From assembly GCA_021776335.1 (NCBI GenBank), contig JAJFGB010000001.1, forward strand, positions 489,431 to 553,430: a DNA stretch of 64,000 nt, written 5' to 3'. The notes under the pieces are model-generated. The model made no database searches and was not told where the DNA came from. It saw only the letters and a program-made list of their open reading frames with translations. The DNA comes from Hyphococcus sp. (GTDB taxonomy: Bacteria > Pseudomonadota > Alphaproteobacteria > Caulobacterales > Parvularculaceae). This document shows, in pieces, positions 7,753 through 24,587 of the stretch; within the stretch, counting starts at the first letter, position 1; each line of letters starts with the position of its first letter. The translations under genes were made by a program, and so were the position numbers.

Positions 7753-8007
7753 TCACCCTCCACTGAAGGGCGGCAGGAAAGCAACTTCTTCGGGTGCGCT
7801 AAAAGGCGTCTCAGCTGAGATGATCGATTGATTGACGCTCAGCCGCACACCCACACCGGTAAGTTCGGCGCGCAACGCTTCGTTATCTGCGCAAAGCCAA
7901 TCGATCAACGTAGCGCCATCGGTAATTTCATTGGGGAGGTCCACGACACGTTCGCCGCCGCCTGCGGGTTCTTTAAGTTTACCGAAAAACAGTATGCGCG
8001 TTGTCAT
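7753..8007 (-). CDS. moaD: Molybdopterin synthase sulfur carrier subunit MoaD
   Basis: 84 aa, ubiquitin-like. It ends FLPPFSGG, the C-terminal Gly-Gly that is adenylylated and thiocarboxylated to carry sulfur for molybdopterin synthase. The N-terminus ILFFGKLKEPAGGGE is typical. It lies 3 bp after moaA and 4 bp before moaE within the Moco operon. Confidence 0.95.
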   Translation of the reverse strand: MTTRILFFGKLKEPAGGGERVVDLPNEITDGATLIDWLCADNEALRAELTGVGVRLSVNQSIISAETPFSAPEEVAFLPPFSGG

Positions 8008-8010
8008 TTG

Positions 8011-9066
8011 TCAGCCGCCGGTTGCCGACATGCGCCGTGACACTGCCGGCGCTGCGCCGCGTTCGCGAATCTCGAAATCATGGCCCTTTGGTTTCCGGGT
8101 GATCGCCGCTTCGATGGCGTGATCAAGCGCGGCATCATCAGCGCCCGCGCGCATGATGCTGCGAAAATCTGCATTATCGTCTTGGCCGAGACACATATAG
8201 AGCTGACCAGTGCAGGTCAGGCGCACGCGATTACAGTCATCACAGAAATTATTGGTCAGCGGCGATATAAGTCCAACCACGCCGCCGGTTTCTTCGACGC
8301 GCACATAGCGTGCGGGACCGCCGGTCCTTAGGCCCAGCGGGGTTAGGGTCCAGCGGTGTTCCAGATCATCACGCATCTGCGTCAGGGGAAGATATTGGTC
8401 CATGCGGTCTTGATCCACATCACCAAGCGGCATGATCTCAATCAGCGTCACATCAATATCACGTTCATGGGCCCACGCGATCATCGCAGGGATTTCCCGC
8501 GCATTTTCATCTTTCATGGCGACAGCATTGATCTTGATCGCGATCCCTTGTCTTTGCGCTGCATCAATGCCCTTGAGGACATCGTCAAGTTTGCGCCGCC
8601 GTGTGATGCGTTCAAACCGGTCAGGGTCGAGCGTGTCGAGAGAAACATTGATGCGCTTAATACCGGCGCTCGCAAGGCGCGGCGCAAATTCCTCAAGCCG
8701 TGTTGCGTTGGTCGTCAGCGTAACTTCATCAAGTTCGCCGCGCCGGACAGCCTCGCCGAGGCTGTCGATTACGGTGAAAATCCCCTTGCGCACCAGCGGC
8801 TCGCCGCCGGTCAGGCGCACTTTACGCACGCCACGGCGCATAAAGGCGCGGATCAGCCGCTCCAGCTCCTCCAGCGATAGAACTTCCTTGCGCGGCAGAA
8901 ATTCCATACGTTCCGGCATGCAGTAAACACAGCGAAGGTCACAACGATCAGTGACCGAAACCCGCAAATAGGAAATGCGGCGACCAAAAGGATCGATCAA
9001 CCCGTCTTCTGTCGGGGTTTTTGCGCTTTTAGGCACAGCAGGTGGTTTCTCAACTGTTTCGCTCAA
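8011..9066 (-). CDS. moaA: GTP 3',8-cyclase MoaA
   Basis: 351 aa radical SAM enzyme that starts Moco synthesis by cyclising GTP. The N-terminal [4Fe-4S] motif CDLRCVYCMPE (Cx3Cx2C) is near residue 42. The second cluster motif CDDCNRVRLTCTGQLYMC is near residue 270, and the protein ends in the Gly-Gly tail needed for activity. Residues 1-22 are a Pro/Lys-rich extension. It follows the permease gene (stop at 9076) by 9 bp, so the permease is probably the first gene of the operon. Confidence 0.96.
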   Translation of the reverse strand: MSETVEKPPAVPKSAKTPTEDGLIDPFGRRISYLRVSVTDRCDLRCVYCMPERMEFLPRKEVLSLEELERLIRAFMRRGVRKVRLTGGEPLVRKGIFTVIDSLGEAVRRGELDEVTLTTNATRLEEFAPRLASAGIKRINVSLDTLDPDRFERITRRRKLDDVLKGIDAAQRQGIAIKINAVAMKDENAREIPAMIAWAHERDIDVTLIEIMPLGDVDQDRMDQYLPLTQMRDDLEHRWTLTPLGLRTGGPARYVRVEETGGVVGLISPLTNNFCDDCNRVRLTCTGQLYMCLGQDDNADFRSIMRAGADDAALDHAIEAAITRKPKGHDFEIRERGAAPAVSRRMSATGG

Positions 9067-9075
9067 TTTTTTATC

Positions 9076-20107: not shown

Positions 20108-22075
20108 TCAGGGCGTATACCAGATCGGTGATGTGTATGCGCGTTCCTGGATGACTTCCGCATAGCCTTCGGGTGGTGCAGCGCCCATGGCGACGGAATC
20201 ATATAGAGAATTACGCGGCGTCGGGATTTGTAAGACGCGCACATAATAAAAGGCGCGGGCGTTAGCGCTGAATTCCGGGTCGCGCCAGACAGCGGCAAGC
20301 TCCGGCGCGCCGATCGAGTTTTCATAAAGCGCGGTTTTGTGATCAACACTATCGCCTACGGAGGGCAATTTGCCATTTGCATCAGGCGTTCGCTCGCCGG
20401 ACCAAATCACGTCAAAGACTTTTTCTTGCGCCTTGCCGTCGGGACCAAGCCAGCCCTTAATGATTTGCACCCGGTCAAGATTGGCGCCTTTGGGGTCTTT
20501 CACTGCGTGCACAAGAAAAGACGGCGCCTGGGGCGCGGCGGAAAGATCACCGCCCATGGGAACGCCTTTTGCGTATCCTGCTGTCGCCAGATCGCGGGCG
20601 TTAAGATCGCTGTTTGCGAAATAATATCCGCCAAAGAACCGCACCGCCATGCGCGGACCGGTCGTGCCGTAGACCTCGCGGCGTTTGAAAGCGGCGATAA
20701 TTTCTTCCCGGTTGTTTTCCCGAGCCCAGACTGCCGCAAGACCAGATGCGGACATCTCCCAGCCGGGAACGTCGGCAAAACCTTTGGCCTTGTTTTCGGG
20801 AATTGAGTCGAGCGCCATCTTGCCCATGAAATTATTTTCTTCCGCGGTCGCTAGTCCGGAGTGACTGTCGGTGGAGCCGATCATGCCGAGCTTATATGGA
20901 TTAACGCCGAGCTGTTCTTCGACCTCCAATCCGGTCTGTAACGCGGAGCGCACATAGTCGCCCTCGGTCACGGGCGGTGACAATGGTGTTGCGGCGCGGG
21001 CGTCAATAAGGGCGTTGAAGAATTCAAAACCGGCGAATTCATCGTCCGGCGAGAGCAACGGATGGGTTTCAGAAGTGCCTTTGATCTGCGTTACTTCTGC
21101 AACTGGCTCCCATGTTGCGCGCAAGCGTGCATAGGTTTCGTCGATTGGCTCACCCGCCGTGGTGACCCGCGCAAACATCTCCCCCTTGGAGATATTTGAA
21201 TTATGTGGGATCGAAACAAAATCAGCGCCCGTCGCCGCATTTGTTTCTGCAAGCCATGCCCATAAATCTTCCGGATTGGCGCTGTCATTGGCGGAAAAGG
21301 GCAGGAATGAATTGGCGAGATCGGCCCCCGCTGGCGTCATGACAATGCGGTGAAGATTGGCGCCGTCGGTTGTCGGCGTATATTCCCAACCGATGATGGC
21401 GGTGAACTTTCCTGGATCATTATGCCGCTCCGCTGCGCTCACATTATATTCCCAATGAGAACGAAAGACGTCGTCGATGATGAGGTCGTCAAACAGAGTC
21501 GGGTCCGAAGATACCCAACGGACTGCACGGGCCGTATTGTCGGCCGCGGTGAAAGTATCGGCAATCTTCCAACGCAACGCCGTAAGGGCGCCGATTTTTT
21601 TTGGTCGATCCGCCTCATCCATACCGACAGAATTGATGCCCATGAGAAATAAGCCAAAGGCGTCTCGTTTGCGGCCCGCATCATTGAGTTGTACGAGGCG
21701 ACGCCCCAGACGTGTTTTGGCAAGCCGTTGATCCTTTAGTGTAAGAAGGCTGTAAGGCACCCCGAGCATGCCAGCATGATCGGTGACGGCGAGAAAATCG
21801 AGCGGCGTTTCGATCTGCACTTTTGCGCGGTGATAGGGATGAACAACCGGCTCACCTTTGGCGAAGCGGTAGGCGGTGTCAGCATCCGCGGAACGGTTTT
21901 CAAGAAAATACGCATCCACGGACCGGTTGGTGTGGAGATGCGTATCGCCCCAAAGCAGTTGATCGGGGTTTTCCTGGGCGGCGGCGGCGCCAATAAGAAC
22001 GGCGCAGGAGCACGCAGCGAATAAAGATCTCTTAGCGATTGCACGAGCAGTTTGACGCCCGGTTGGTTGGACCAT
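20108..22075 (-). CDS. DUF3604 domain exported protein (PHP-like metal hydrolase)
   Basis: 655 aa from the ATG at 22073-22075; the open frame runs 115 codons further upstream into the aldehyde dehydrogenase gene, with no family match. A signal peptide ends AAAQENP near residue 36. The metal site starts LLWGDTHLHTNRSVDA, then FLAVTDHAGMLG, SIPHNSNISKG and GSTDSHSG, the His/Asp pattern of PHP-like phosphoesterases. DUF3604 proteins have no assigned substrate. It is the first gene of an operon with parvulin and HupE/UreJ genes. Confidence 0.88.
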   Translation of the reverse strand: MVQPTGRQTARAIAKRSLFAACSCAVLIGAAAAQENPDQLLWGDTHLHTNRSVDAYFLENRSADADTAYRFAKGEPVVHPYHRAKVQIETPLDFLAVTDHAGMLGVPYSLLTLKDQRLAKTRLGRRLVQLNDAGRKRDAFGLFLMGINSVGMDEADRPKKIGALTALRWKIADTFTAADNTARAVRWVSSDPTLFDDLIIDDVFRSHWEYNVSAAERHNDPGKFTAIIGWEYTPTTDGANLHRIVMTPAGADLANSFLPFSANDSANPEDLWAWLAETNAATGADFVSIPHNSNISKGEMFARVTTAGEPIDETYARLRATWEPVAEVTQIKGTSETHPLLSPDDEFAGFEFFNALIDARAATPLSPPVTEGDYVRSALQTGLEVEEQLGVNPYKLGMIGSTDSHSGLATAEENNFMGKMALDSIPENKAKGFADVPGWEMSASGLAAVWARENNREEIIAAFKRREVYGTTGPRMAVRFFGGYYFANSDLNARDLATAGYAKGVPMGGDLSAAPQAPSFLVHAVKDPKGANLDRVQIIKGWLGPDGKAQEKVFDVIWSGERTPDANGKLPSVGDSVDHKTALYENSIGAPELAAVWRDPEFSANARAFYYVRVLQIPTPRNSLYDSVAMGAAPPEGYAEVIQERAYTSPIWYTP

Positions 22076-22115
22076 TTTTATCCTGTTCCCTCTTATTGAT
22101 CTACGCGCCAGGCGC

Positions 22116-23543
22116 TCATCCAGCCGGGCGGATGACCGCCTTTGTCTCCAGAAAATCTTCCAGGCCAAATTCGCCCCATTCACGTCCATTGCCGGATTGT
22201 TTATATCCGCCAAAGGGCGCTGAAAAGTCCACGCCAGCGCCGTTGAGTATAACCTGACCGGCGCGCAAACGCTTTGCGACTTTTCCTGCGTGACTGACAT
22301 CGCCGCTGAAAACATAAGCGGCAAGCCCGTAGGGCGTATCATTGGCGATCGCGATTGCGTCGTCTTCACTCTCATAGCCGATGATGGAAAGGACCGGCCC
22401 GAAGATCTCTTCACGGGCAATGGTCATGTCGTTTGTGACATTGGCAAACACTGTCGGCTTTACATAGTAGCCGTGTTCAACATTTTCGGGCTTGCCCGGC
22501 CCGCCAGCGACAAGTGCGGCGCCTTCGGCGACGCCGATTTCAATCAACGCCTGAATTTTTGTCCATTGCTGATTGCTGACGACGGGACCGATGGTTGTGC
22601 CTTCCTGGTTTGGATCGCCGACCTTAATCGTGGCGGCGACGGCTTTTGCGATGGCCGCTGCTGCATCCATTTTCGCTGCGGGCACCAGCATGCGTGTCGG
22701 CGCATTGCAGGATTGGCCTGAATTCATCATGCAGGCGACGACGCCATGGCCAACAGCGGCTTGCAAGTCCGCATCGTCAAGAATGATGTTCGCAGACTTG
22801 CCGCCGAGTTCCTGCGCAACGCGTTTTACGGTTGTCGCTGCGGTTTTGGCGACTTCAACGCCGGCTCTCGTTGATCCGGTGAAAGAGACCATGTCGATTT
22901 CCGGATGGGCGGCGATCGCAGCGCCAACATCGGGACCAGTACCGTTGACCATATTAAAAACGCCCTTCGGCACGCCGGCATCGTCAAGTATTTCCGTCAG
23001 GATATAGGCGGAAATAGGCGCGATTTCTGAAGGTTTCAGGACAATAGTGCAGCCAGCCGCAAGGGCAGGCGCGACCTTGCAGGCGATCTGATTAATCGGC
23101 CAGTTCCACGGTGTGATGAAGCCAACGACGCCGACCGGTTCCTTGATCAGATCATGGGCGCCGCGGGGTTGCGTGAATTTATATTCCTTCAAAATTTCGT
23201 TAGTGGTTTGAAAATGCGCAAGGCCGGTCGCGGCCTGGGCCTCCATCGCGAGTTTCATCGGCGCGCCCATCTCTTCGCTGATCGCCACCGCCAGATCTGC
23301 ATATCTAGCCTGATAAGCAGCGAGGATCTTTTCGAGAAGCGCTACCCGTTCATCACGGCTGGTCTGCGAATAATTATGAAACGCAGCGCGTGCTGCACAG
23401 GCGGCTGTATCGATGTCCGCGGGGACACCGAGAGAAATCTTTGCAAATGCGGATTCGTCAGCAGGATTGATGACATCGAGTGTTTGCCGACCGGTCGGTT
23501 CTATCCATGCGCCATTGATATAAAACTTTGTGAGGTCGCGCAT
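22116..23543 (-). CDS. Aldehyde dehydrogenase (NAD(P)+), ALDH superfamily
   Basis: 475 aa from ATG 23543, with GGAG 6 nt upstream; an upstream start adds 13 residues without family match. It oxidises an aldehyde to the acid. Signatures: FITPWNWPINQIA near residue 140, SFTGSTRAGVEV near residue 220, catalytic Glu in VAQELGGKSANI near residue 245 and catalytic Cys in NSGQSCNAPTRM near residue 278. Divergent from the Crp/Fnr gene 348 bp away. The substrate may be an aldehyde from the nearby quinohaemoprotein dehydrogenase (inference). Confidence 0.93.
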   Translation of the reverse strand: MRDLTKFYINGAWIEPTGRQTLDVINPADESAFAKISLGVPADIDTAACAARAAFHNYSQTSRDERVALLEKILAAYQARYADLAVAISEEMGAPMKLAMEAQAATGLAHFQTTNEILKEYKFTQPRGAHDLIKEPVGVVGFITPWNWPINQIACKVAPALAAGCTIVLKPSEIAPISAYILTEILDDAGVPKGVFNMVNGTGPDVGAAIAAHPEIDMVSFTGSTRAGVEVAKTAATTVKRVAQELGGKSANIILDDADLQAAVGHGVVACMMNSGQSCNAPTRMLVPAAKMDAAAAIAKAVAATIKVGDPNQEGTTIGPVVSNQQWTKIQALIEIGVAEGAALVAGGPGKPENVEHGYYVKPTVFANVTNDMTIAREEIFGPVLSIIGYESEDDAIAIANDTPYGLAAYVFSGDVSHAGKVAKRLRAGQVILNGAGVDFSAPFGGYKQSGNGREWGEFGLEDFLETKAVIRPAG

Positions 23544-23891
23544 ATGCTCTCCATCAATGGTTGGAGCGATGTCACTCGTCACGCCACCATGTCCATCGCT
23601 CGCACAAGGGCGGCGGCATCATAGGCGCTATTGCGGTCAGCGAGACAGCGCGAAAAGCAGTCGGTCTCGAGCAGGCTCGGCGTCACGCGCGTTTGGGTGT
23701 ATCAACAACAGGCCTCATAATTATGGACTCTGATGCGAGGAGATTCGGCCAATATGCAGCAGCATACCGATCGCTGCATTTTTTGATTGCACGATTGTAT
23801 CGCAGTGCAATATATTCACCAATTGGTTGTTTTTTTCAGCGCTAAATGGGTGTAAAGTGCCCATGAGCTGACATTCCCGGGGGAGGGTTTT
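23544..23891. promoter_or_regulatory. Divergent intergenic region with candidate operator
   Basis: 348 bp between the divergent aldehyde dehydrogenase and Crp/Fnr genes, without a credible gene. An inverted repeat ATTGCAC-N12-GTGCAAT lies at 23786-23811, about 80 bp before the Crp/Fnr start, with a GAT-TGT-ATC element inside it. A Crp/Fnr-type dimer could bind here. The ribosome binding site GGGGAGG (about 23880-23886) sits before the TTG start of the Crp/Fnr gene. Confidence 0.4.
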
Positions 23892-24587
23892 TTGGTTGAA
23901 GGCGCGGAATATCTTGATTGGATCGGTATGCTGCCAGCGAACGTGCAGGCGGCTGTGTTGGCCCAAATGACACCATTGTCGCTACCGGCCGGCGCCTTTC
24001 TGTACGAACGAGGCAGCCCTTCACAAGGGATATTCCGGATTAACAAAGGTACTGTCCGGCTTTTCTTTTTAACTGCGAGCGGCCGTGAGTTGGTTCTGAA
24101 ACGGTTTCACGCAACTGAAAGTGTTGGCGAAGTTGCTACAGTTGAAGGGCGCCATCATGAGCTTTTCGCTGAAGCGGTGACGGACTGTGAGCTTAGCGTC
24201 CTCAGTTTTGAAAAACTCGCTGCGCTGCGAGAGCAATACCCGGCTGTCAATTCGGCCTTGCTCGTAGTTATGACGCGTGTCGCGCGAAATGCGCTCAACT
24301 TTATAGAAGAAATTGCCGTTTTCTCTCTCGAAGCACGCGTGGCGTCGCGTCTTCGTTGGCTGGCTTCGTGCGCCGATGCGCGTGGCGAGGAGGTGTAACT
24401 ATTGAAGGTGCCGCAAAAGGAGCTTGGTCTGATGGTGGGCGCGTCGCGTCAGGCAATCAACAAGGTTTTATCGGATATGCAAAAGCTCGGGGTGCTGAAA
24501 ACATCCTATGGCGCTATTTCGATTATCGATGTGGAGAAATTGCAGCAAATCAGCGAGCAAGCGGAAAAGAGATATTCGGGCGACTAA
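23892..24587 (+). pseudogene. Crp/Fnr family regulator interrupted by an in-frame TAA
   Basis: The first part (TTG 23892, with GGGGAGG about 5 nt upstream, to TAA 24396-24398, 168 aa) has the cyclic-nucleotide-binding barrel, with GAFLYERGSPSQGIFRI and GEVATVEG, and the long dimer helix. The same reading frame continues after the stop with KVPQKELGLMVGASRQAINKVLSDMQKLGVL, the Crp-type helix-turn-helix. No frameshift is needed: one codon separates the two. The stop falls in the hinge between domains. This is either a nonsense mutation, a sequence error, or two proteins made by reinitiation (see the ribosome binding site at 24388). Divergent from the aldehyde dehydrogenase, so it may once have controlled it. 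Confidence 0.75.
24388..24404 (+). promoter_or_regulatory. Consensus ribosome binding site and TTG restart within the Crp/Fnr gene
   Basis: AGGAGGT (24388-24394) is a full match to the anti-Shine-Dalgarno, followed 7 nt later by a TTG at 24402 that opens the DNA-binding domain frame (61 codons, to 24587). The interrupting TAA (24396-24398) lies in the spacer. This arrangement would allow a terminating ribosome to restart and make the helix-turn-helix domain as a separate protein. Use as a real start is inference. Confidence 0.45.

Follow-up and report, generated by a model that had tools for sequence, protein, structure and literature searches.

Does a regulator gene with a stop codon directly after an excellent ribosome binding site, and just before a possible start codon, represent one broken protein or two separate ones? 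This question is raised by a Crp/Fnr regulator gene in the window, by which we mean the whole 64,000-nucleotide stretch of DNA analysed here, taken from a genome of 4.18 Mb in 11 contigs. In our opinion, with somewhat better than even confidence, the gene formerly encoded a one-piece regulator and was interrupted recently by a single in-frame nonsense substitution on the branch of this species or strain.

A stop codon beside a Shine-Dalgarno sequence

The letters at 24387-24404 read GAGGAGGTGTAACTATTG. They hold an in-frame TAA (24396-24398, + strand), which interrupts the gene inside the stretch encoding HTH_Crp_2, and, immediately before it, AGGAGGTG, an 8-base Shine-Dalgarno match (24388-24395, + strand) within G-E-E-V codons. 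After the TAA comes a single codon, CTA, and then TTG at 24402, a stop-to-start gap of +3 nt. AGGAGGTG ends at a working distance of 6 nt 5' of this TTG, and the AGGAGGT that it contains (24388-24394) ends 7 nt 5' of it. The upstream frame (23892-24398, + strand; 168 aa from TTG 23892) covers the cNMP-type sensor, the helices after it and the beginning of HTH_Crp_2, and ends at the TAA. The downstream frame (24402-24587, + strand; 61 aa from TTG 24402) covers the helix-turn-helix and the wing, that is HTH_Crp_2 positions 22-70, and both share one reading frame. Thus the sequence-only reading described the letters correctly when it reported an in-frame TAA, a continuation in the same frame and AGGAGGT 7 nt 5' of a TTG. 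The regulator's own start is apparently a TTG too (23892-23894), aligned with the GTG of the nearest orthologue, and its likely Shine-Dalgarno sequence is GGGGAGGG (23880-23887, + strand), 5' of that codon. All matches were scored against the general bacterial Shine-Dalgarno core, which is the reference for the 8 bases, as the 16S 3' end of this particular genome was not found.

Indeed the site is an unusual place for a nonsense change, as had also been argued from the sequence. Our background consisted of 359 ORFs, each at least 150 codons long and none overlapping another, drawn from 464 kb of the 4.18 Mb genome. Among their 26,924 stop-prone codons (one change away from a stop), only 25 combine a 6-base Shine-Dalgarno match with an in-frame start no more than 5 codons further on, and none has a 7-base match nearby, against the 8 bases seen here. 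Internal in-frame start codons of the same ORFs have a 6-base match in 11 of 6,124 cases and a 7-base match in none. Even likely gene starts, on a rough choice of such starts, reach at least 7 bases in only 9 of 359 cases. Within the letters of this gene, 3 of the 63 possible nonsense changes would lie as close to the motif, the present stop being counted as one. For a single gene, therefore, the coincidence of stop, Shine-Dalgarno sequence and restart codon is strong. However, many features were scanned before this one was singled out, and a nonsense change adjacent to a restart site may outlast others, so that rarity alone is no proof of design.

The place of the cut and the uncut relatives

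The upstream piece matches PF00027 (cNMP_binding, 1.1e-14). A six-frame search matches PF13545 (HTH_Crp_2) over positions 1-70 across the TAA (1.7e-13, one TAA inside), and the downstream piece alone matches it only over positions 22-70 (8.4e-11). The first 21 or so of the 70 HTH_Crp_2 positions therefore sit on the upstream piece. Of the features of a Crp/Fnr regulator, the N-terminal cNMP_binding and the C-terminal HTH_Crp_2 domains are both present, and the one continuous chain is missing because of the TAA. Judging from these domain matches, the break is inside the winged-helix domain and neither piece is a whole DNA-binding domain. Hence it is not appropriate to call the pieces 'sensor' and 'DNA-binding', as was done originally: the 61-residue piece has neither sensor nor dimer helix, and its part of the winged-helix domain comes without the first helix. 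With the DNA-binding domain itself interrupted, the unjoined pieces are not expected to work as the normal dimer, and the regulator has most likely lost its activity or a large part of it.

PDB relatives found by sequence include the catabolite activator CRP and Crp/Fnr proteins, and the best of these matches carries five extra residues exactly at the cut site. In an AlphaFold2 model, predicted for the read-through protein from its single sequence, the cut comes to lie between a helix at residues 146-163 and the helix-turn-helix at 175-198. As a whole this model is poor (mean pLDDT 45.5); block means lie between 56 and 87 for residues 141-220, with about 60 at the cut, and the model served only for the rough position of the cut. 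Together, the PDB match and this weak model suggest that the cut site is a loop of variable length.

Relatives are informative about the history of the stop. A search of 62 genomes of the family (E up to 1e-20) returned six orthologues besides this gene; in the genus, 5 of 28 genomes have the gene, this one included (E up to 1e-30). None of the six orthologues has an in-frame stop inside the match. Our codon alignment comprises six sequences, this gene and five orthologues, the sixth orthologue (G064, 39% identity) having been left out. In all five aligned orthologues the column of the TAA holds a sense codon (Glu, Thr, Thr, Thr, Val). Two columns earlier, opposite the second Glu of the AGGAGGTG stretch in this gene, their residues are Ser, Pro, Thr, Pro and Leu, and none of the five carries AGGAGG in the matched frame. 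On this alignment, stop and motif are peculiar to this genome among the genomes compared. The sequence-only reading had itself proposed to compare this codon in relatives, with a sense codon and no such motif as the outcome that would speak against its two-protein idea, and this is what we find.

The nearest orthologue (G017, 67% identity) is uncut and syntenic, so that an intact orthologue at the same locus in a relative, a feature of pseudogenes, is present. The regulator adjoins genes for DUF3604, aldehyde dehydrogenase, PQQ dehydrogenase and alkyl sulfatase, a neighbourhood common to this nearest relative, in which these neighbours are 81-87% identical (DUF3604 84% over 668 aa, aldehyde dehydrogenase 81%, PQQ dehydrogenase 83%, alkyl sulfatase 87%). 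The Crp gene itself is 66% identical to G017 before the stop and 73% after it. A further 99-aa piece of DUF3604, in a stretch overlapping the next gene, is 57% identical to G017. As a separate observation, the listed DUF3604 frame (20108-22420, - strand) shares about 300 bases with the aldehyde dehydrogenase frame and its domain match starts only at residue 151, so the true start of DUF3604 is probably further in. Stretches of 20 kb (in one case 16 kb) around the four other aligned orthologues show the Crp gene and none of these neighbours.

Among the 150 matches listed of 186 to HTH_Crp_2 in the 62 family genomes (E up to 1e-8), exactly one has an in-frame stop, and it is this gene. Apparent in-frame stops were also met in eight Crp/Fnr-like matches in other genomes; the six that were checked (L067-L071, L033), with G044 and G048 (TGA) left out, proved to be the gene's own end, within at most the last four residues.

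What do the two halves tell about the age of the stop? Compared with G017, the half before the stop has a dN/dS of 0.10 and the half after it one of 0.17, which falls to 0.11 when the C-terminal tail is left out; these are rough values given that dS, at 2.9 and 1.5 respectively, is at or near saturation. At the 89 sites before the stop that are outgroup-invariant (three outgroups agree), 8 are changed here only, 2 in G017 only and 24 in both; at the 37 such sites after the stop the corresponding numbers are 0, 1 and 13. A second stop was found in neither half. Both halves, on these comparisons, still look coding. The half after the stop seems to be free of visible decay, which would fit a recent stop and, equally, a half still in use.

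Decay of the genome, or a high load of base errors in it, was considered as well and is not borne out. We scanned 464 kb for stops with coding potential in the same frame on both sides, demanding at least 50 open codons to either side together with a score above 8; this gene, at 8.5 and 9.4, only just qualified, and weaker cases would escape. Eight stops were flagged, this one among them. At the other seven, the two sides match different Pfam families (MreC/MreD and ThiS/ThiG are examples; of the 14 pieces one does so only below the cut-off), hence seven of the eight flagged stops separate different proteins. The TAA of the regulator is the only in-gene stop flagged in the 464 kb, and such stops are rare here. 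The window itself offers an ordinary pair of close neighbours, the Radical_SAM / Mob_synth_C and ThiS-family genes (7756-9075, - strand), which lie in the same frame, are separated by TGA, CAA and ATG, and have the same +3 nt gap as the regulator site.

Broken gene, split gene or error

We believe that the events may be summarized as follows. A one-piece regulator gene would recently have acquired an in-frame nonsense substitution; ribosomes finishing at the TAA, or binding de novo at AGGAGGTG, would then start at the TTG with some efficiency and yield a 61-residue helix-turn-helix piece. By making up for part of the loss, such a restart may have favoured the survival of the mutation. Reinitiation is frequent in prokaryotes according to the part of a review available to us (PMC5972666). 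In the available part of a study of coupled gene pairs, termination-reinitiation is taken as predictive at stop-to-start distances of -8 to +10 nt and is nearly lost at about 20 nt, and with a gap of +2 nt three E. coli pairs lost 5, 20 and 70% of their reinitiation (PMC10666635). The gap of +3 nt at our site falls inside that range, and because it fits the measured coupling distances, some amount of the 61-residue product is likely to be made. Thus, of the features of a termination-reinitiation pair, the distance and a Shine-Dalgarno sequence at working distance are present here, and conservation in relatives is absent (stop in none of six, AGGAGG in none of five).

The recent nonsense substitution is supported by what is observed directly: the stop, the intact relatives, the synteny and the coding character on both sides. 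Against it, a random nonsense change would give a far poorer combination than an 8-base Shine-Dalgarno match with a restart codon and a stop, and the half after the stop, with none of its 37 outgroup-invariant sites changed here only, looks as if under selection, although a recent stop would give the same picture. These two points lead to an alternative that we regard as unlikely, namely a functional two-chain regulator, in which stop and restart make a sensor/dimer piece and a helix-turn-helix piece in a set ratio and the pieces reassemble non-covalently. The cut would separate the first helix of the winged-helix domain from the helix-turn-helix, in the loop that joins them, which agrees with the five extra residues of the PDB match and with the position between helices in the weak model. 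Besides, the Shine-Dalgarno match and its spacing are far above background, the downstream half is unchanged at outgroup-invariant positions, and the gap is inside the coupling range, close to the +2 nt gap that cost the three E. coli pairs only the fractions given above; coupled pairs are moreover linked to heteromeric complexes in the available part of the same study (PMC10666635). However, the arrangement was seen in a single genome, and the RNA around the site folds in an ordinary way (z 0.13). The related and more explicit proposal of a gene fission inside the winged-helix domain, whereby a newly arisen Shine-Dalgarno sequence and the TTG create the stop-restart and the chains reassemble with a tunable ratio of parts, appears to us rather improbable. 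Therefore, of the original suggestion that stop and restart make two proteins, the ingredients stand (stop, restart codon, strong Shine-Dalgarno sequence, +3 nt gap); an established two-protein arrangement is not supported, given the sense codons and lack of AGGAGG in all five aligned orthologues and the lack of a stop in all six.

Another explanation, that of a base-call or assembly error with the gene intact in the organism, seems to us rather improbable. A single isolated stop of the substitution type in an otherwise intact gene is what such an error would look like, and no 16S rRNA match was found in the assembly, a weak test whose control was positive in only 9 of 14 known genomes. Missing 16S rRNA is common in metagenome-assembled genomes. 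On the other hand, the frame is kept on both sides, which excludes a single insertion or deletion error and leaves only a substitution error to mimic the stop; there is no homopolymer at the site, and the scan of 464 kb flagged no other stop inside a gene. It is harder still to believe in readthrough of the TAA at some rate to give the full-length protein, an idea that has in its favour the in-frame conservation of the sequence after the stop. A stop anticodon is absent from all 56 tRNA genes read by ARAGORN, a set that includes the 54 Rfam tRNA matches, although a suppressor that is degenerate or unassembled could escape; TAA serves as a normal stop in the genome, e.g. between the AHSA1 and DUF5655 genes; and the ordinary local folding argues against readthrough as well.

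The tRNA genes deserve a separate remark. Sixteen of them are packed in 2.3 kb on the same contig, outside the window (L102:9250-11579, i.e. G000:C1:127249-129578). Fifteen of the 16 genes have an anticodon that occurs in a tRNA gene elsewhere in the genome too, Val-CAC only in the array, and none has a stop anticodon. Arrays of this kind are often mobile or phage-derived; the flanks here are ordinary chromosomal genes (EamA transporters, metallophosphoesterase, peptidase M1).

In our opinion, a recent nonsense change with a partial, perhaps useless, restart is the most economical account, and reassembly of two chains is the bolder one. If the split is functional, we would be looking at gene fission at its first step, a nonsense mutation and a nearby ribosome binding site producing a two-chain transcription factor, with the split falling inside one folded domain. 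If the change is a recent nonsense mutation, which is more likely, this is an ordinary broken regulator beside PQQ dehydrogenase and alkyl sulfatase genes, and a caution that a good Shine-Dalgarno sequence beside a stop does not prove design.

Comparison with known systems

In the literature on reinitiation after nonsense codons and on split regulators we did not find a description of this case, which is no proof of absence. Compared with other Crp/Fnr regulators, the combination of cNMP_binding and HTH_Crp_2 is the same, but here the frame is cut inside HTH_Crp_2, and the six orthologues found are uncut. Nonsense mutations of E. coli lacI, with restart at internal start codons, are known from laboratory mutants. 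Our case resembles them in the order of a nonsense codon and then an internal start codon; the product here is only predicted, whereas the lacI cases are laboratory mutants.

With the coupled pairs described in the available part of PMC10666635, the locus shares a stop and start close together (+3 nt here) and a Shine-Dalgarno sequence within the upstream frame. Those pairs are native, however, and mostly overlap by 4 or 1 nt, whereas here the arrangement occurs in one genome and splits a single domain. Finally, the gene is similar to the young bacterial pseudogenes treated in the available part of PMC13345370, which are recently broken and still have their ribosome binding sites. Those belong to endosymbionts with very many pseudogenes, in contrast to the present genome, where in-gene stops are rare in the 464 kb scanned.
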